From: Gammaproteobacteria bacterium
GTDB taxonomy: Bacteria; Pseudomonadota; Gammaproteobacteria; SZUA-140
Length of the DNA stretch: 42,883 nt
NCBI GenBank assembly: GCA_026982565.1
Contig: JALSGV010000183.1
Span: forward strand, 1-42,883
Direction of reading: 5' to 3'
The notes below the pieces were generated by a model. The model made no database searches. It was given only the letters and a program-made list of their open reading frames with translations, and was not told the DNA's origin. The position numbers and the translations under genes were made by a program. Positions 7,442 through 42,678 of this stretch are shown here, one piece after another; the stretch's first letter is position 1; each line of letters starts with the position of its first letter.

Positions 7442-8546
7442 ACAGCGCCCCGAAGGGCGGCCGATAAGGTCGGTAATAAACCTGACGGCCTTGCGGGAGA
7501 ACCTGCGGGCCGTTCGCCGTCATGCGCCCCATGCGCGCATCATGGCCGTCATCAAGGCCAATGGCTATGGACACGGCATACGGCGTGTGGCCGAGGCCTT
7601 GCGGGAGGCGGATGCCTTTGGCGTTGCCGGTATCGATGAGGCTCTGGACCTGCGCGAGGGGGGGATCGACCACTCCATCGTGCTCCTGGAGGGTTTCTTT
7701 GCCGCGGACGAACTGCCGGCCATTGCTCATCATGGGTTCTCCGTCGTCGTACACCATGAAACACAGATCGAACAGCTGGTATCTGCGCTGCAGCAGCCTC
7801 TGACCGCCTGGCTGAAAATAGATACGGGCATGCACCGCCTGGGCTTCAGGCCACGGCAGTTTGAAACGGCGTATCGCCGCCTCAAGGCGTGCGGCAGTAT
7901 CGCCGCCATCCACTTCATGACCCACTTCGCCTGCGCCGATGAGCGGGACAATCTTCAGACCTGTCAGCAGATAGATGTATTCCACGCCCTGACACAGAAC
8001 CTGCAGGGTGACGTCAGCCTGGCGAATTCCGCGGCCATACTCAACCAGCCTGCATCCCATTCACGGCGGGGAACGGGAAAACAGTGGGTGCGTCCCGGCA
8101 TCATGTTGTTCGGCGTCTCGCCTTTTCCCGATGAAGATGGAGAGCGTCTGGGTCTGCATCCGGTCATGACCCTGAAGTCACGCCTTATCGCTGTCAATGC
8201 CTGCCAGCGTGGGGATGCCATCGGCTATGGCGCCACCTGGCGTTGTCCCGAGGATATGCGCGTGGGGGTGGTGGCGGCTGGTTATGGTGATGGTTATCCG
8301 CGCAGCGCCGCCAGTGGCACGCCGGTATTGGTGAAAGGGCGGCGCGTGCCCCTGGTGGGAAGGGTTTCCATGGATATGTTGTGCGTGGACCTGCGCGCCT
8401 GCCCCGATGCCGCCGTCGGTGATGAGGTGGTGCTGTGGGGCGGAGGGCTGCCCGTGGAAGAGGTGGCGCGCCACGCCGGCGCCATTGCCTATGAACTGCT
8501 GTGCGGCGTGACGCCGCGGGTCAGGATCGTGGAGGAGGGCGGGTGA
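7434..8546 (+). CDS. alr: Alanine racemase
   Basis: A pyridoxal-phosphate enzyme interconverting L- and D-alanine for peptidoglycan. The 370-residue product has the fold-type III barrel with the PLP lysine K41 in AVIKANGYGHG, the second catalytic base Y265 in IGYGATW, and the C-terminal beta domain with GRVSMDM. Motif spacing matches the biosynthetic Alr family. The ATG at 7434 overlaps the end of dnaB. The dnaB-alr-radA order is widespread in gammaproteobacteria, so the neighbourhood supports the call. Confidence 0.96.
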   Translation: MHEQRPEGRPIRSVINLTALRENLRAVRRHAPHARIMAVIKANGYGHGIRRVAEALREADAFGVAGIDEALDLREGGIDHSIVLLEGFFAADELPAIAHHGFSVVVHHETQIEQLVSALQQPLTAWLKIDTGMHRLGFRPRQFETAYRRLKACGSIAAIHFMTHFACADERDNLQTCQQIDVFHALTQNLQGDVSLANSAAILNQPASHSRRGTGKQWVRPGIMLFGVSPFPDEDGERLGLHPVMTLKSRLIAVNACQRGDAIGYGATWRCPEDMRVGVVAAGYGDGYPRSAASGTPVLVKGRRVPLVGRVSMDMLCVDLRACPDAAVGDEVVLWGGGLPVEEVARHAGAIAYELLCGVTPRVRIVEEGG

Positions 8547-9946
8547 ATTCCAAGGCGCGGGCAAAGGGCGCCAAGTTGCTGTTCAACTGCACGGAGTGCG
8601 GCGCCCAGAGCAGCAAGTGGTCTGGACAGTGCGGTGCCTGTGGGGCTTGGAATACCCTGGTGGAAGACGTGGCGCGCCCCGCTGGAAATCGCAGCGGGCT
8701 GAATCTCGAAGCCTTCACCATGGCTTCCGAGGTGCGTTCCATCAGCGAGATCGGCGCCGACGATGAAGTGCGCATCGGCACCGGTTTCTCGGAGCTCGAC
8801 CGCGTCCTTGGCGGCGGGCTGGTGCAGGGGTCCGTGGTGCTCATCGGCGGCGACCCCGGCATCGGTAAGTCCACCCTGCTCACCCAGACCATGGGCGCCC
8901 TGAGCAACACTGTAAGCACCCTGTATGTGAGTGGCGAGGAGTCGCCGCAGCAGGTAAGTCTGCGCGCCCGGCGCCTGGGCATGCCCGTGGACAGGTTGCG
9001 CCTGCTGGCGGAGACCGAGGTCGAGCGTATCCTGGTGCTGGCAGACAGGGAAAAGCCCCGCGTCATGGTCATCGACTCCATCCAGACCATTTTCACCTCG
9101 CAGGTGCAGTCCGCCCCCGGTTCCGTCAGCCAGGTGCGGGAGAGCGCCGCCCTGCTGGTGCAGTATGCCAAGCGCACCGGCGCCGCCCTGTTCCTGGTGG
9201 GGCACGTCACCAAGGAAGGCATGCTGGCCGGTCCTCGCATACTCGAACACATGGTGGACACGGTGCTGTATTTCGAGGGTGATGTGGACAGCCGCTTCCG
9301 CGTACTGCGGGCGGTGAAGAACCGCTTTGGCGCCGTCAACGAGATGGGCGTCTTCGCCATGGTGGACAACGGCCTGCGCGAGGTGAGCAATCCATCGGCG
9401 ATCTTTCTGTCCCGTCACGAGGAAGCAGTGTCCGGCAGCGTGGTCATGGTGACGCGGGAGGGCAGCCGTCCCGTGCTGGTGGAGATCCAGTCACTGGTGA
9501 GCGAGAGTCATGCGCCCAACCCGCGCCGCCTGGCGGTGGGACTGGACCAGAACCGCCTTGCCATCCTGCTGGCGGTGCTACAACGTCATTGCGGCATTGC
9601 CATGTACGACCAGGATGTGTTCGTCAACGTGGTTGGTGGAATGCGGGTCAGTGAGACGGCCGCCGATCTCGCCGTGGTCATGGCGGCCCTGTCCAGCCTG
9701 CGCAATCAGCCCCTGCCGGGGGATTTGGTGGTGTTTGGTGAAATTGGCCTGGCGGGGGAGGTGCGCCCGGTCCAAAATGGCCAGGAAAGATTGCGTGAGG
9801 CTGCGCAACATGGTTTCACCCAGGCCATGGTGCCCAAGGCCAACGCCGCCAGGAAATCGATCAAGGGACTGACGGTAATACCCGTTCAATCCGTCGGCGA
9901 GGCTGCAGCTTATTTTCAGGATTGTTTCGCATCCAGAGGCCCTTAA
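8543..9946 (+). CDS. radA: DNA repair protein RadA (Sms)
   Basis: A RecA-like ATPase with helicase activity that processes branched recombination intermediates. The GTG at 8543 is chosen over the upstream ATG at 8501 because it overlaps the alr stop as GTGA, follows GGAGGAGGG at 8531-8539 and gives 467 residues, close to E. coli RadA (460). The product shows the N-terminal zinc finger (C16, C19, C30, C33), Walker A GGDPGIGKS (K109), the diagnostic KNRFG motif at 259-263 and the C-terminal Lon-protease-like domain. The next gene in this strand is the NRPS, 30 bp downstream. Confidence 0.97.
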   Translation: MNSKARAKGAKLLFNCTECGAQSSKWSGQCGACGAWNTLVEDVARPAGNRSGLNLEAFTMASEVRSISEIGADDEVRIGTGFSELDRVLGGGLVQGSVVLIGGDPGIGKSTLLTQTMGALSNTVSTLYVSGEESPQQVSLRARRLGMPVDRLRLLAETEVERILVLADREKPRVMVIDSIQTIFTSQVQSAPGSVSQVRESAALLVQYAKRTGAALFLVGHVTKEGMLAGPRILEHMVDTVLYFEGDVDSRFRVLRAVKNRFGAVNEMGVFAMVDNGLREVSNPSAIFLSRHEEAVSGSVVMVTREGSRPVLVEIQSLVSESHAPNPRRLAVGLDQNRLAILLAVLQRHCGIAMYDQDVFVNVVGGMRVSETAADLAVVMAALSSLRNQPLPGDLVVFGEIGLAGEVRPVQNGQERLREAAQHGFTQAMVPKANAARKSIKGLTVIPVQSVGEAAAYFQDCFASRGP

Positions 9947-9976
9947 AGGGGTTAATTGTGATCATGGGTTCCGACA

Positions 9977-12900
9977 ATGAGTGACATAGAAAAACGTCTC
10001 CAATCACTCTCCGCTGAAAAACTTGCGCTTCTTAAGAGGAAGTTACGGACGAGCCAGGAGTTTTCAGGTGGGTGTGACATTATTTCGAGAAGAGAGAATG
10101 CTGGCAATGCCCCATTGTCCTTCTTTCAGAGATCGATATGGTTCTTCGATCAATTTGAGCCAGGCAGCGCGGTCTATAATCGCTGCGCAAATTACAGGCT
10201 GCAGGGGCCGCTCAATATAGAGGCGTTACAAAAAGCGCTGGACACACTGGTGGCCCGGCATGAAAGCCTGCGCACTATTTTCAAGATGGAAGGGAACGAA
10301 CCGGTGCAGGTTGTCCTCCCGGAATGTCAGGTAGAACTGCCAATATTGGATTTGAGTGCTCAAGGAGGCGACGATAGCACGGGACGATTACAACGCTTGG
10401 TTAGCGAAGAGGCTCAACGACCCTTCAATCTAACGCAAGGGCCTCTGCTGCGTGTCACGCTCATAAAACTTGCCAGGCACGATCATGTGCTGATGACCAC
10501 AATACATCACATCATTTCGGATGGTTGGTCATCGGCTATTTTCAATCGTGAGCTGGGCAGTTTGTATAACAGCATCACTCAGGGATGCACAGCCGATTTG
10601 CCGGATCTGCCGGTTCAGTATGTTGACTACGCCCAGTGGCAGCGGGAGCGGATGCAGGGCGAGGTTCTGGAGAAGCTGCTTGACTATTGGAGAAATCAGC
10701 TTGAAGGTGCTCCCCCGCTGCTGGAATTGCCAACCGACCGGCCTCGCCCCGCGATTCAGACATTTCGTGGAGGACGGCGGTCTGCCATTTTGCCGCATGC
10801 CCTATGCGATGAACTGACGAAACTGAGTCAGGGGGAAGGGGGGACGCTTTTTATGATCCTGCTGGCGGCTTTCCAAGTGCTGCTCTATCGTTACACAGGT
10901 CAGGAAGACATAGTGGTAGGCACACCCATCGCCAATCGCAGGCGTGGTGAGATTGAAGGATTAATCGGCCTTTTCATCAACGTGCTGGCATTGCGCTGCG
11001 ATTTGTCCGGTAACCCATCATTTCGCGATCTGGCTAAACGTGTTCGCGAAGTGGCGCTCGGCGCCTACGATCACCAGGATATGCCATTTGGAAAACTTGT
11101 GGAGGAACTTCATCCGGGGCGCAATCTAGCTTATTCGCCTTTGTTTCAGGTCATGTTTGCCTATCAGAATATCTTGGTCGCTGATCTTTGCATGAATGGT
11201 TTGGATGTGGAGAATTTAGAGGCAGAAGAAGGAATTACGCATTTCTATCTGACCCTCATCATAGAGAATCACGACCAGGGTCTCAAGGCCACGTTGGAGT
11301 ACAGCGCTGATCTTTTCAATGCAAGCACAATGACCAGGATGCTGGGGCATTACCAATCACTGCTGGAAGGCATAGCTGCCGATGCCGGACAAGGCGTTGC
11401 CGAGCTGCCATTACTGAGTGAGGCAGAACGTTATCAGTTATTGAAGCAGTGGAATGCCACGGAGGCGGACTACCCGCGTGACAAATGCCTGCATGAACTG
11501 TTCGAAGAACAGGTGGAAAGGCGTCCGGATGCGGTGGCTGTGGTATATGAATCGCGGTCTCTTACTTACGATGAGCTTAACTGTCGCGCCAACCAGGTGG
11601 CGCGGGCGTTGCGCAAGGAAGGTGTAGGTCCGGGTGCATTGGTGGCGATCTGCCTTGAGCGCAGTATAGAGATGGTCGTGGGGATATTGGGAATTCTCAA
11701 GGCGGGGGGTGGCTATGTTCCCCTGGATCCTGATTATCCTGAAGGGCGTCTCGCTTTTATGCTGGAAGACACTCAGGTCCCGGTAATACTCGTCCAACAA
11801 TCGCTTATGGGGCGGCTGCCTGAACATGATGCCCGCGTTATTTGTCTCGATGCCGGCTGGGATGGTCTGGATCAGTACGGCCAGGATAATGTGGTCAATT
11901 ATGCCGGACCCGATGACCTTGCGTATGTTATCTATACCTCCGGATCAACTGGGAAGCCAAAGGGCGTCTCGGTGCCGCATCGCGCGGTGAACCGTTTAAC
12001 TGTCAATACGAATTATATCAGCCTTGCCGAGACGGACAGGATTGCCCAGGTTTCAAGCATCTCTTTCGACGCGGCAACATTTGAAATCTGGGGGGCGCTG
12101 CTAAACGGAGCCACTCTGGTTGGCATCAATAAAAGAACCATACTGTCGGCGGATCAATTTTCTCACAGGCTGGAGGAAGATCAAATATCAGTGTTATTTC
12201 TGACGACAGCGGTTTTCAACCACTTGGTTGGAGAAAATCCAGCAATGTTCGCATGCCTTGATTATTTGCTGTTTGGTGGAGATTCGGCCGATCCGGAAAA
12301 GGTCAGAGATGTGCTGAAAACAGCTCCTCCCCGGCATTTGATCAATGTCTATGGCCCAACGGAAAATACAACCTTTTCTACGTGGCATGAGATCAGGGAT
12401 TTGCCTGATGACGCAATATCCGTACCCATAGGGCGGCCAATATCCAATACACAGGTATATATTCTTGATGGGGAAATGAATCCCGTGCCCATAGGCGTAT
12501 ACGGCGAGTTATACCTGGGTGGAGAGGGCTTGGCGCTTGGCTATCTCAACAATCACTCATTAAGCTCAGAGCGATTCGTGCCAGATCCTTTCAACAATTT
12601 ACCCGGCTCACGGCTCTACAAGACGGGTGATGTGGCGCGATACCGGGAGGACGGCGTGATAGAGTTTCGCGGCCGGATGGATAATCAGGTCAAGATTCGT
12701 GGTTTTAGGATAGAGCCTGGAGAAATCGAGGCGGAAATAAGGCAGCACCCTGCGGTAGAAGAAGCCATTGCTGTGGTTTTTGAGGAAACCGGCGGCGAAA
12801 AACGCCTGATCTCCTATGTAACGCTCAAGAAACCGGCCCGGATCACTGAAGAAGACCTCAGGTCTTTTCTTTCTGAAAGGCTTCCGGATTACATGAGGCC

Positions 12901-14074
12901 TGCCGGCTATGTGATTCTGGAAAGATTTCCTTTAACAGAAAACGGCAAGATAGATCGCCAGGCATTGCCAGCTCCGGACATGTCGATGCCTCTGTCCACC
13001 GAGACTTATGCGGCTCCCCGGACAAAAGTAGAAAAGGACTTGGTGGAAATATGGGAGTCTCTGTTTGATAGGAAAAAGATTGGCATTCATGATGATTTTT
13101 TCCACCTGGGTGGACATTCTCTCCTGGCGGCCAGACTGTTTTCCATTTTAAGGAACAGATACAAGCGGGATCTTCCCCTGATTACTATATATGAGTCTGG
13201 GACAATTGAGCAGATAGCCAGGCTTCTGACGGGGGATTCATGTCAGGCGTTGTCATTGTCCTCTTTGGCCGCCGTTCAGTCCAGCGGGGAAAAACCACCC
13301 TTTTTCTGGGGGCTGGGTACCAGGGCCAGCGATCAGGCCAGGCGGTTCCTTGGAGGTGAGCAACCCTTTTATGTTTTGCAACACCAGGCCCAGGATGGCT
13401 ATCGCGCCCGCTATACACAGATCGAGGCTCTTGCCAGATGGTACTTGGAGGATATCCGCGCAGTTCAACCTCATGGACCCTATTTCCTGGGAGGGTTTTC
13501 CTTTGGCGGCATGGTAGCCTATGAGATAGCCCGTCAGATCGAACAATCCGGCGACAGCGTGGCCTTGTTGTTTTTACTTGATGCAACACAGCCGGGTCAG
13601 AAGGTGATAAAAAAGGAGGCCGTTACTCAGGGTTGTACCCGTAAGCTGACAATATCAGGCCGCCCGGGGCTTGTGAAAGGGGCGTGGCGCAGAATCAGGA
13701 GAGTGTTTCTGAGCAACGGAATAAAGGAGTGGGCCAAGCTCGCTGTGTGTCATATCTGTTTTGCCATGAACATACCCATGCCTGTGCCGTTGAGAAGCTT
13801 TTATATCATCAGGATTTATAAGAAAGCAGCCCTTGGATACAGACTTGTGCCCCTCAAGGGGCAGGTGGTGTTTTTTCAGTTTGAGAAGCCATCAGGTCAA
13901 CCGGCGTCCAACCGGTATATCGAATGCAATCATCACGCTGAATTGTATTCCATGGAAGGCAGGCATAGGGATGTGGTTACGCCACAGCACGCAAGCACGT
14001 GGGCAAATCAATTGAAGAAAAGCCTTGCAGCGGCACAAGCCCGGGTGGGGTATGGTGGCTTGAAAACAAATTGA
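9977..14074 (+). CDS. Single-module non-ribosomal peptide synthetase (C-A-T-TE)
   Basis: This 1365-residue enzyme carries one complete elongation-and-release module. The condensation domain (about 45-480) has HHIISDG at 177-183 and the LCL-like opening FFDQFEPGSAVYN. The adenylation domain (about 500-1000) has YTSGSTGKPKG at 653-663, YGPTE and NGK with K991. The carrier domain has LGGHS with the phosphopantetheine serine S1048. The thioesterase (about 1090-1350) has GFSFGG with S1175, a plausible Asp in FLLDATQ and His in CNHHAEL. Aligned by hand to GrsA, the ten specificity positions read D-A-F-F-L-G-V-T-F-K, closest in memory to isoleucine-type codes. No partner module, MbtH protein, phosphopantetheinyl transferase or exporter is seen, so the donor for condensation must come from elsewhere. 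Sampled 60-bp rows show 40-53% GC against 68% in radA, and no clear ribosome-binding site precedes the ATG. Product unknown. Confidence 0.93.
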   Translation: MSDIEKRLQSLSAEKLALLKRKLRTSQEFSGGCDIISRRENAGNAPLSFFQRSIWFFDQFEPGSAVYNRCANYRLQGPLNIEALQKALDTLVARHESLRTIFKMEGNEPVQVVLPECQVELPILDLSAQGGDDSTGRLQRLVSEEAQRPFNLTQGPLLRVTLIKLARHDHVLMTTIHHIISDGWSSAIFNRELGSLYNSITQGCTADLPDLPVQYVDYAQWQRERMQGEVLEKLLDYWRNQLEGAPPLLELPTDRPRPAIQTFRGGRRSAILPHALCDELTKLSQGEGGTLFMILLAAFQVLLYRYTGQEDIVVGTPIANRRRGEIEGLIGLFINVLALRCDLSGNPSFRDLAKRVREVALGAYDHQDMPFGKLVEELHPGRNLAYSPLFQVMFAYQNILVADLCMNGLDVENLEAEEGITHFYLTLIIENHDQGLKATLEYSADLFNASTMTRMLGHYQSLLEGIAADAGQGVAELPLLSEAERYQLLKQWNATEADYPRDKCLHELFEEQVERRPDAVAVVYESRSLTYDELNCRANQVARALRKEGVGPGALVAICLERSIEMVVGILGILKAGGGYVPLDPDYPEGRLAFMLEDTQVPVILVQQSLMGRLPEHDARVICLDAGWDGLDQYGQDNVVNYAGPDDLAYVIYTSGSTGKPKGVSVPHRAVNRLTVNTNYISLAETDRIAQVSSISFDAATFEIWGALLNGATLVGINKRTILSADQFSHRLEEDQISVLFLTTAVFNHLVGENPAMFACLDYLLFGGDSADPEKVRDVLKTAPPRHLINVYGPTENTTFSTWHEIRDLPDDAISVPIGRPISNTQVYILDGEMNPVPIGVYGELYLGGEGLALGYLNNHSLSSERFVPDPFNNLPGSRLYKTGDVARYREDGVIEFRGRMDNQVKIRGFRIEPGEIEAEIRQHPAVEEAIAVVFEETGGEKRLISYVTLKKPARITEEDLRSFLSERLPDYMRPAGYVILERFPLTENGKIDRQALPAPDMSMPLSTETYAAPRTKVEKDLVEIWESLFDRKKIGIHDDFFHLGGHSLLAARLFSILRNRYKRDLPLITIYESGTIEQIARLLTGDSCQALSLSSLAAVQSSGEKPPFFWGLGTRASDQARRFLGGEQPFYVLQHQAQDGYRARYTQIEALARWYLEDIRAVQPHGPYFLGGFSFGGMVAYEIARQIEQSGDSVALLFLLDATQPGQKVIKKEAVTQGCTRKLTISGRPGLVKGAWRRIRRVFLSNGIKEWAKLAVCHICFAMNIPMPVPLRSFYIIRIYKKAALGYRLVPLKGQVVFFQFEKPSGQPASNRYIECNHHAELYSMEGRHRDVVTPQHASTWANQLKKSLAAAQARVGYGGLKTN

Positions 14075-14086
14075 ACAGTGTTGTCG

Positions 14087-14479
14087 TCAATGCACGGGCC
14101 AGGAGAGTTTTCCCAGTGCGTACAGTTCCCGGTGAATCAGGTCGGCGTCTCCCAGGTTCAGCTCCATGAGGCGCTTGAGATGAGCGATGCTGTTGACGTC
14201 GATATCCAGGCATTCGAAACCGATGCTATCCTCTTCCGCATGGGCGACGGCCGCCCCTTCCATGCGGATGACGATGTCCGCATAATCGCCCAGTTCGATC
14301 TCGAGCATGAACTTGTCTCCCTGTTTTGCCCGCCAGTCTTCAGGCTTGACGACCAGTGCTCCCTTGAGGGAAATGTCGATCAGCTGGCTGTGCCAGGTTT
14401 TCTCGTTATTGCTGATGCTGACGCGGGAATCGTGCAAAATGCGGGTGAAGCGGCGTTTGTCTCCGGTTTTCTCGGTCAT
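14087..14479 (-). CDS. PilZ domain protein, PA4608 type
   Basis: A 130-residue single-domain c-di-GMP receptor. It has the two PilZ binding motifs, RRFTR at 9-13 and DISLKG at 35-40, and closely resembles what I recall of P. aeruginosa PA4608 (which binds a chemotaxis methyltransferase), including the C-terminal HLKRLMELNLGDADLIHREL. A matching partner cannot be confirmed here. It follows dapE on the minus strand with a 27-bp gap and converges on the NRPS gene with only 12 bp between stops. In P. aeruginosa the homologue is next to radA, so the NRPS appears to separate a normally adjacent pair. Confidence 0.88.
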   Translation of the reverse strand: MTEKTGDKRRFTRILHDSRVSISNNEKTWHSQLIDISLKGALVVKPEDWRAKQGDKFMLEIELGDYADIVIRMEGAAVAHAEEDSIGFECLDIDVNSIAHLKRLMELNLGDADLIHRELYALGKLSWPVH

Positions 14480-17830: not shown

Positions 17831-18745
17831 ATGCCTTCCAAACCGCATATGGCATTCTATCCCGTCGCCTGCCTGTTGTTCAGCGCCACCTTGTGGGGCG
17901 TTTTCTGGTATCCCCTGCGGGTGCTGGAAGAGCATGGCCTGCCGGGCTTGTGGTCCACCCTCGTCATCTACGGGGCCGCACTTGCCGTCACCCTGCCCAT
18001 GTTGTGGATATACCGCCGCGCATTCCATCAACCCCATCTGTTGTTCTATCTTGCCCTGGCCAGCGGCTGGACCAATGTCGCCTTTATCCTTGCCATTATT
18101 GAGGGCAACGTGGTGCGCATTCTTCTGCTGTTCTATCTCTCCCCCATCTGGACCGTCCTGCTGGGCCGGCTTTTCCTTGGCGAGACCCTGACGCTCCTGG
18201 CTCGCATCACCCTCGGACTGGCCATGCTCGGCGCCTTGGTGATGTTGTGGGATCCGTCCACGGGACTGCCCTGGCCGCGGGACCACGCCGACTGGCTGGC
18301 TATTTCCTCCGGCCTGGCCTTTGCGGTAGCCAACGTCGTGGTGCGCAAGACGCAGGAAGTCTCGGTATGGGTCAAGGCGCTTGTCGGCTGGTGGGGCGTG
18401 ATAGTGGTCGCCGGCCTGTTTATTGTGTTATTGGGGCTGCCATTGCCCCGGGTGGAGCCGAATATCATTGGCGCCGCCGCAGGTATCGGGGCCATTGGCA
18501 TCGTTGCCATGACCCTGGCCGTCATTTATGGCGTGACCCATATGCCCGTGCACCGTTCCGCCACCATCCTGTTGTTCGAGCTGGTGGCCGGCGCCGTCTC
18601 CGCGGAATGGCTGACGGACGAGGTGGTGCAGCCCAATGAATGGGTGGGAGGCGCCTTGATCATCATTGCCGCGGCGATCGCCGCGCGCGCATCAGTGACG
18701 ACAGGTCCGGATCGCGGGCGACCAGGGGGGGAGCAGAACACCTGA
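17831..18745 (+). CDS. EamA-type (DMT) transporter
   Basis: A 304-residue integral membrane protein with about ten hydrophobic segments in two five-helix halves, the EamA repeat layout of the drug/metabolite transporter superfamily. The halves end with SPIWTVLLGRLFLGETLT and LLFELVAGAVSAEWLTDE, the usual E-rich ends of helix 4 in each repeat. The substrate cannot be told from sequence. The ATG at 17831 is taken; another at 17849 is possible and neither has a clear ribosome-binding site. Its 3' end converges on the rhombosortase gene, with a REP-like palindrome between them. Confidence 0.85.
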   Translation: MPSKPHMAFYPVACLLFSATLWGVFWYPLRVLEEHGLPGLWSTLVIYGAALAVTLPMLWIYRRAFHQPHLLFYLALASGWTNVAFILAIIEGNVVRILLLFYLSPIWTVLLGRLFLGETLTLLARITLGLAMLGALVMLWDPSTGLPWPRDHADWLAISSGLAFAVANVVVRKTQEVSVWVKALVGWWGVIVVAGLFIVLLGLPLPRVEPNIIGAAAGIGAIGIVAMTLAVIYGVTHMPVHRSATILLFELVAGAVSAEWLTDEVVQPNEWVGGALIIIAAAIAARASVTTGPDRGRPGGEQNT

Positions 18746-40886: not shown

Positions 40887-40971
40887 GAGCAGTTATTGGG
40901 TGCTATTTTCACATTATTGTGTACCCATGTAATTAGCTTGCTATTTGCCAAAAATGGTGTATGCTAAGGGT

Positions 40972-42678
40972 ATGCACATCGACGTGGTCCCCAATCGTAA
41001 TTCGCGCCCGGCTTACCTGCTTCGGGAATCGTATCGTGACGGAAAGAAAGTCAGAAAGCGCACCATTGCCAACCTTTCCTCCCTTTCGGATGAACAAATC
41101 AGGGCCTTTCGGGCCATTCTTGCGGGGCAGAAGCTGGCGCCTGTTAAGGCCCTGTTCGAGATCGAGAAGTCCCGCGCCCATGGCCATGTCGATGCCGTAC
41201 GTGTAGCCATGTTGCGCCTGAAGGTGCCGGCCTTGTTATCCTTCCGGCCTTGCCGCGAACGGGATCTGGTCTGCGCCATGGTCGCAGCGCGGGTCGTGGC
41301 ACCCCATACCAAGCTGGCCACCACCCGTTGGTGGCACACCACCACGCTGGCGGAGGACTTTGGCGTCATGGATGCGACCGAGGACGACTTATATGCGGCG
41401 ATGGACTGGCTGCTGGCGCGCCAGGACAGGATCCAGAAGAAACTCGCGGCCCGGCATCTGCGGGAGGGCTGCCGGGTGCTGTACGATCTCTCGTCGAGTT
41501 ACTTCGAGGGCAAGACCTGTCCCCTGGCCCGAATTGGCTACAGCCGCGATGGCAAAAGGGGCAAGCCACAGGTCAACTACGGCTTGTTGGCCGATACGCG
41601 GGGCTGTCCGGTGGCGGTGTCGGTATACGAGGGCAATACCGCGGATCCAAAAACGCTGATGCCGGAGATTGAGCGGCTGCGGCACGATTTCGGCATCACC
41701 CAGCTGGTGATGGTTGGGGACCGAGGGATGATCTCGCAGAAGGCGATCGAGGCTTTGCGTGAGCAGGAGGGTATCGGCTGGATCACCGCGCTCAAGAGCG
41801 GCGCCATCCGCGCCTTGATCGATCAGGGGCAACTCCAGATGGGACTGTTCGATGAGCGCAACCTGTTTGAGTTCACCCACCCCGACTATCCGCGCGAACG
41901 CCTGATTGCCTGCCGCAATCCGGCGTTGGCCGCCTTACGTGCGCGCAAGCGTGAAGACCTGCTGCAGGCCACCGAGAAGCAGCTGGAGAAGATACGCACC
42001 CTGGTGCAAAGTGGCCGGTTGCGCGGTCAGGACAAGATCGGCTTGCGCGTCGGCAAGGTGATCAACCAGTACAAGGTGGCCAAGCACTTCATGCTGGATA
42101 TCCAGGATCAGTCGTTTGCGTTCCAGCGTTCTGATACGCGCATCGCCGCCGAAGCGGCGCTGGACGGGCTCTACGTCATTCGCACCTCGGTGCCCGCCAT
42201 GCGCATGGACAGTGCCGAGTGCGTACGGCACTACAAATCCCTGGCCCAGGTCGAACGGGCATTCCGCACGCTGAAATCCGTCGACCTGCGGATCCGCCCG
42301 ATCCATCATCGCTTGGCCGATCGGGTGCGCGCGCATATCTTTTTGTGCATGCTCGCCTATTACGTCGAGTGGCATATGCGCGAAGCGTGGCGCGAATTGT
42401 TGTTTGCCGACACCGATCAAGAGGCCAAAGCCACATGCGATCCAGTGGCGCCCGCGCGGCGTTCCGCCGCCGCCGAGCGCAAAGCCAGCACCCACACGCT
42501 CGACGACGGCACGCCAGCCCATTCCTTCGCCACCTTGATGGACGAACTCTCGACAATCGTGCGCAATACCTGCCGCTCACCCCAGGCGGGTGATAACGCC
42601 CCCACCTTCCACGTCACCACTCAACCTAATCCCAAACAAAGGCGCGCCATCGAACTGATACAACAAATAACCCTGTAG
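40972..42678 (+). CDS. IS1634-family DDE transposase
   Basis: An RNase H-fold transposase of the IS4 superfamily, 568 residues from ATG 40972 (TTG 40945 and ATG 40954 are alternatives; none has a well-placed ribosome-binding site). It starts MHIDVVPNRNSRPAYLLRESY as in related elements. The catalytic residues are likely the Asp of YDLSSSYFEG, the Asp of MVGDRGMIS and the Glu of SLAQVERAFRTLKS, in the order and spacing of IS4-type DDE enzymes with a beta-strand insertion before the Glu. The frame is intact, so the element may still be active. Confidence 0.9.
   Translation: MHIDVVPNRNSRPAYLLRESYRDGKKVRKRTIANLSSLSDEQIRAFRAILAGQKLAPVKALFEIEKSRAHGHVDAVRVAMLRLKVPALLSFRPCRERDLVCAMVAARVVAPHTKLATTRWWHTTTLAEDFGVMDATEDDLYAAMDWLLARQDRIQKKLAARHLREGCRVLYDLSSSYFEGKTCPLARIGYSRDGKRGKPQVNYGLLADTRGCPVAVSVYEGNTADPKTLMPEIERLRHDFGITQLVMVGDRGMISQKAIEALREQEGIGWITALKSGAIRALIDQGQLQMGLFDERNLFEFTHPDYPRERLIACRNPALAALRARKREDLLQATEKQLEKIRTLVQSGRLRGQDKIGLRVGKVINQYKVAKHFMLDIQDQSFAFQRSDTRIAAEAALDGLYVIRTSVPAMRMDSAECVRHYKSLAQVERAFRTLKSVDLRIRPIHHRLADRVRAHIFLCMLAYYVEWHMREAWRELLFADTDQEAKATCDPVAPARRSAAAERKASTHTLDDGTPAHSFATLMDELSTIVRNTCRSPQAGDNAPTFHVTTQPNPKQRRAIELIQQITL

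Follow-up and report, generated by a model that had tools for sequence, protein, structure and literature searches.

Nonribosomal peptide synthetases (NRPSs) that carry a single module of condensation (C), adenylation (A), thiolation (T) and thioesterase (TE) domains on one protein include EntF, the enterobactin synthase component F, a serine-specific C-A-T-TE termination module whose acyl donor is delivered by the carrier of a second protein. The same four-domain, one-protein architecture is seen in AB3403 from Acinetobacter baumannii (C-A-PCP-TE, PDB 4zxh), which has been termed an uncharacterized NRPS (PMC6668435). A further member of this kind is encoded in a gammaproteobacterium of the GTDB lineage SZUA-140 (NCBI GenBank assembly GCA_026982565.1), at positions 9977-14074 of the forward strand of contig JALSGV010000183.1; positions 1 to 42,883 of this contig were analysed and are referred to as the window, and the encoded protein of 1365 amino acids (aa) as the window NRPS. 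We put at about 0.55 the probability that it is an intact, acquired termination module acting as the second half of an assembly line that is split yet ordinary in other respects, with an A-T protein encoded on another contig (C44) as its partner and N-acyl-isoleucine as its product.

Compared with the described systems, AB3403 matches the window NRPS in sequence over C-A-T and part of the TE, yet its C-domain similarity is far lower than that of Txo1 (142 against 366 bits). EntF differs in that it works with an MbtH-like protein (title of PDB 5ja1), whereas no match to MbtH (PF03621) was found in either the genome that holds the window or that of its sister, both of which are incomplete, and the window NRPS is thus not counted among the MbtH-dependent synthetases; furthermore the C domain of EntF has been grouped with starter domains (PMC1894796) whilst that of the window NRPS is LCL-like. 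A plasmid of Calothrix brevissima NIES-22 encodes an NRPS of 1396 aa (BAY66694.1, 42% identity) that covers the C-A-T-TE span and, within the stretch seen, is not flanked by a full-length NRPS, although an ORF of 158 aa annotated as an adenylation domain protein follows it, so lone modules are not unique to the window.

All domains of the window NRPS exceed their Pfam gathering cut-offs, and the gene encodes a type I NRPS termination module with all four domains present. Condensation is matched at aa 42-489 (E 7e-116; C domain at 10100-11443), AMP-binding at aa 509-857 and AMP-binding_C at aa 916-991 (A domain at 11501-12949, which is also above the cut-off of NCBIfam TIGR01733), PP-binding at aa 1021-1084 (T domain at 13037-13228) and Thioesterase from aa 1131 (E 3e-18; TE domain at 13247-14071). 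The complete module proposed in the initial annotation therefore stands, with every catalytic motif intact: the C domain has HHIISDG, of the HHxxxDG type, at aa 177-183 (10505-10525); the A domain has YTSGSTGKPKG (aa 653-663), YGPTE (aa 792-796) and the A10 lysine, Lys991; and the phosphopantetheine serine of the T domain is Ser1048 in LGGHSLL (codon 13118-13120). The TE has the triad Ser1175 (13499), Asp1202 (13580) and His1330 (13964), and in an alignment of six TEs the Asp and His are invariant and the nucleophile is Ser in five and Cys in one. It is divergent, with 35% identity to its relatives in the genus, and its AlphaFold2 model is of moderate confidence (pLDDT 66); the best Foldseek matches of this model are TE domains, the first being that of AB3403. 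The start codon is uncertain, as an alternative in-frame ATG lies at 9965, four codons 5' of the ATG at 9977.

The initial annotation had suggested that the C domain is of the LCL elongation type and would accept a donor from a carrier encoded elsewhere. On phylogeny and similarity it is indeed an elongation domain of LCL type: in a tree whose reference rows were labelled from domain context rather than experiment it falls among elongation domains, outside the group that holds post-epimerisation (DCL-type) C domains (support 95), and when ranked against solved structures Txo1/Txo2 come top with 366 bits. RzmA (7c1h and kin) and CDA-C1, which we take to be starter C domains, the type that accepts beta-hydroxy or fatty acyl donors, reach only 70-82 bits, and a starter-type assignment was rejected on this difference. 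The specificity code extracted from the A domain, DAFFLGVTFK, is an Ile code in oscillapeptin and aeruginosin-type synthetases (PMC2533009, PMC13122637), which predicts L-Ile as the substrate with Val or Leu as possible side substrates.

As for the donor, the genome (2.64 Mb in 214 contigs, 90.8% complete) holds two C domains, five carrier domains and two phosphopantetheinyl transferases (PPTases). The carriers are the window T domain, the T domain of a second NRPS on contig C44, an A-T protein encoded beside it, a carrier on contig C164 that is taken from its size to be AcpP, and an acyl carrier protein (ACP) on contig C24. The C44 operon encodes the A-T protein, which is a FadD7-like acyl-AMP-ligase/carrier protein, a thiamine pyrophosphate (TPP) enzyme, an isocitrate-lyase-superfamily enzyme, the second NRPS (L006:15720-19892) and an Sfp-type PPTase. 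This NRPS resembles that of the window in its C-A-T-TE layout, its N-terminal helix and its C domain, which belongs to the same genus clade, and the two are 42% identical; it differs in its operon setting and in its A-domain code, DSALIAEVWK, which has been assigned to His (PMC12283262). The operon is conserved in the sister genome, and a genome of another family (G376) has counterparts of its A-T, lyase, TPP and C parts. The term orphan, which had been applied to the window gene, hence holds for the locus but not for the genome as a whole, where an Sfp-type PPTase and an acyl-AMP-ligase/carrier protein sit beside a paralogous NRPS, and the search of the genome lends support to the idea of a donor encoded elsewhere by giving an apparently orphan module a concrete candidate partner. 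The C44 gene set (L006:10958-19892 and L007:11-718) adjoins exopolysaccharide export genes.

We infer that the C44 A-T protein is the donor from several lines of evidence. All C domains of the genus form one clade (99/97), including those that adjoin A-T in two genomes, and outside the genus the best-matching C domain (L026, 51% identity) directly follows, on one polypeptide, an A-T with 55% identity to that of C44. The separate A-T proteins of the window's genome, the sister genome and G376 end in an acidic tail with a net charge of -9 to -13, whilst the NRPS and TPP proteins start with a basic helix of net +3 to +8; in the window NRPS this helix, MSDIEKRLQSLSAEKLALLKRKL (9977-10066, forward strand), is the proposed acceptor docking element. 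In the window's genome the acidic C-terminal tail occurs once, on the C44 A-T, and a search with a helix profile, built from eight sequences that included the proteins found, returned the window NRPS, the C44 TPP enzyme and the C44 NRPS and nothing else (next match E 0.28), so that the point of the result is the absence of further matches. A tailed NRPS is followed by a helix-bearing NRPS in the same cluster in a member of the Blastocatellia (L010) and in one of the Burkholderiales (L018), and no such helix separates T from C in the A-T-C proteins that are fused (L026 and L109). A strict helix pattern was found in 6 of 22 N-terminal C domains and in 0 of 25 internal ones, with further N-terminal cases seen by eye.

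In the mechanism proposed the carriers would be primed by the Sfp-type PPTase of C44, after which the A-T protein would activate a small acyl acid, hold it as a thioester and dock through its acidic C-terminal tail on the basic N-terminal helix of the window NRPS. The A domain would load L-isoleucine onto its own T domain, the LCL-type C domain would join the acyl group to the amino group of Ile, and N-acyl-isoleucine would be freed by the TE. This release is assumed to be hydrolytic, since a product of one residue offers no obvious nucleophile for cyclisation. An N-acyl amino acid would remain the likeliest product. Stand-alone A homologues in two genomes lie beside a tricarboxylate-transporter-like set or a ketopantoate-reductase-like gene, as read by eye, and these neighbours hint that the acyl group is a small carboxylic acid.

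A number of points weigh against the C44 A-T as partner and against the docking proposed for it, the make-up of the helix profile being one. The A-T gene is not on the contig of the window and shares its operon with a gene for a His-coded C-A-T-TE protein, so that the A-T has a dedicated partner already. The tail and helix motif is short, and NRPS and TPP helices compared in pairs vary from clearly similar to no more alike than by chance, the match of the window helix to one of the three TPP helices being no better than shuffles. The separate A-T in L030 is without a clear acidic tail, and the roughly 9% of the genome that is missing may hold another loader. Promoter-like sites are no more than shuffles explain, which leaves the evidence for an own promoter of the NRPS at chance level.

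Apart from the A-T protein, the free carriers of the genome are AcpP and the C24 ACP alone, and the synthesis of N-acyl amino acids by stand-alone single NRPS modules is a known logic. On this basis AcpP, or the C24 ACP, might pass a fatty acyl group straight to the C domain to give N-fatty-acyl isoleucine without any part played by the C44 A-T. It would seem unlikely, since starter C domains, defined as those that take fatty acyl donors (PMC1894796), are distant from the C domain of the window NRPS, and since the acidic tail is found on the A-T only; the C24 ACP moreover sits in an apparent sphingolipid locus, for which reason it was rejected as main donor. This locus (L067:6462-10928) encodes an acyl-AMP ligase, the ACP and an alpha-oxoamine-synthase-like protein, followed by a transporter-like ORF, and resembles the set of ACP, acyl-CoA synthetase and serine palmitoyltransferase that has been described (PMC9386255); by this analogy it appears to be a bacterial sphingolipid locus.

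The putative pairing of tail and helix invites comparison with COM domains, known from TycA/TycB and SrfA, which are likewise short terminal elements that join a protein to the C domain that follows (PMC9113145). In the available portion of this 2021 docking-domain review the NRPS docking classes are COM, PAX and beta-hairpin, and a pair of acidic tail and basic helix is not among them. COM domains are known there from junctions of epimerisation (E) and C domains, the donor being the E-domain end and the acceptor a helix-hand on the C domain, whereas here the acidic tail follows a T domain and the junction would be T to C; the proposed pair is at most a possible member of the COM class. A literature search for the helix string LSPEKRALL gave no match. 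We infer, very tentatively, that a single tailed loader may serve three helix acceptors, namely the Ile-coded window NRPS, the His-coded C44 NRPS at an unlinked locus and a TPP enzyme that would remodel the carrier-bound acyl group, in which case the pair could represent an uncharacterised and widespread docking class and the loader a branch point to two N-acyl amino acids from one starter. A true docking class would provide engineering with a new part and give a simple sequence rule by which NRPS genes at unlinked loci of a draft genome could be connected, and it is worth following together with the TPP enzyme that bears the same helix. This enzyme, of the oxalyl-CoA-decarboxylase/acetolactate-synthase type, was seen at L006:12959-14701 (C44), L046:4178-5929 and L110:1907-3649, each with an N-terminal LSPxKRALL helix like that of the adjoining NRPS, which suggests action on a carrier-bound substrate. 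Beside the separate A-T in L030, from the Chloroflexi, is an NRPS with two tandem condensation domains (C-C-A-T-TE, L030:9914-15451).

Among 55 related genomes the sister genome (G001) alone holds the closest full-length relatives of the window NRPS, and in other collections identity is at most about 51%. The sister encodes, on its contig C15, a bimodular C-A-T-C-A-T-TE NRPS of 2463 aa (L045:3217-10608) that shares with the window NRPS the Ile code, in its module 2, and the N-terminal helix; it differs in having two modules, a TE divergent from that of the window (35%) and other flanking genes. The C domain of the window NRPS shares 74% identity with the sister C domain of module 1 and 60% with that of module 2, whilst for its large A subdomain the closer match is module 2 (61% identity, against 49% for module 1). 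In the C-domain tree the window pairs with the module-1 domain (100/99), and AU tests reject both a pairing of the two sister C domains and a pairing of the window with module 2 (both p 0.0007); in the A-domain tree the window groups with module 2 (support 97). The window C domain is thus placed as orthologous to that of sister module 1 and the window A domain to that of sister module 2. As the split between the two sister C domains is older than that between the window and module 1, the simpler course, if descent was vertical, is that the window lineage lost A1-T1-C2, and the window gene probably derives from a two-module synthetase of the genus in this way. The comparison thereby offers an example from nature of an apparent module loss whose switch point falls close to the C-A linker. 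The small A subdomain, T and TE are near neither sister module, and the T-TE part would require a further exchange beyond this loss. That the two genes occupy the same locus was rejected, given the other flanking genes of the sister NRPS and the position of the sister pilZ at a contig end.

A gene in which C1 is joined to A2 is also what would be expected had the assembler collapsed the two C domains of a gene that is truly bimodular, and in a genome of 214 contigs this has to be weighed, the more so as the sister C1 and C2 are 75% identical in DNA along most of their length and have an exact word of 32 bases in common. We consider it very improbable, because collapse needs near-identical repeats, the switch lies near the C-A linker and not inside C, and the downstream small A subdomain, T and TE are close to neither sister module.

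The genes that surround the window NRPS are housekeeping on both sides (alr, radA, pilZ, dapE, dapD, an aminotransferase, an EamA transporter, a rhomboid protease and glnD). On the evidence of ORFs and Pfam none of these neighbours is a loading module, MbtH, PPTase or tailoring enzyme, and the sole transporter nearby, the EamA gene at 17831, is tied to the NRPS by nothing, much as the initial annotation had it. The radA gene (8501-9946, forward strand), recognised by ORF, Pfam and synteny, ends 30 bp before the NRPS, with which it is possibly co-transcribed, and pilZ (14087-14479, reverse strand, Pfam) is convergent and ends 12 bp after it. The G+C content at third codon positions (GC3) is 54.7% in the NRPS against 68.7-81.4% in the window genes measured; it is likewise low, at 59-65%, in the C44 NRPS operon. 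The order alr-radA followed by convergent pilZ-dapE-dapD is present in a genome of the same family (G007) with no NRPS inside, and a genome of another family (G027) retains alr-radA and convergent pilZ, again without an NRPS. From this synteny the radA/pilZ junction is ancestral, and given the low GC3 and the NRPS-free junction in relatives the NRPS is taken to be an acquired insert in it.

The atypical GC3, the lack of a linked partner, the divergent TE and a patchy distribution, with the sister holding the closest full-length relatives, are also features of a recent arrival or remnant left without its upstream partner and without a product, in which case the intact frame would reflect young age only. 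This we regard as rather improbable, as the catalytic residues of four domains are all intact across 4.1 kb, the N-terminal helix is retained and orthologous domains are present in two members of the genus.

The cargo of the radA/pilZ junction (9947-14086 in the window) varies, being the NRPS here and two other, differing ORFs in G007 (L102:3205-4284) and G027 (L080); the site may therefore tolerate insertions. A search for repeats around the NRPS found no clear flanking duplication as a sign of transposition, and a terminator scan gave sites somewhat above shuffles, none of them at the ends of the NRPS. Elsewhere in the window a DDE transposase ORF is present at 40945-42678, close to the contig end.

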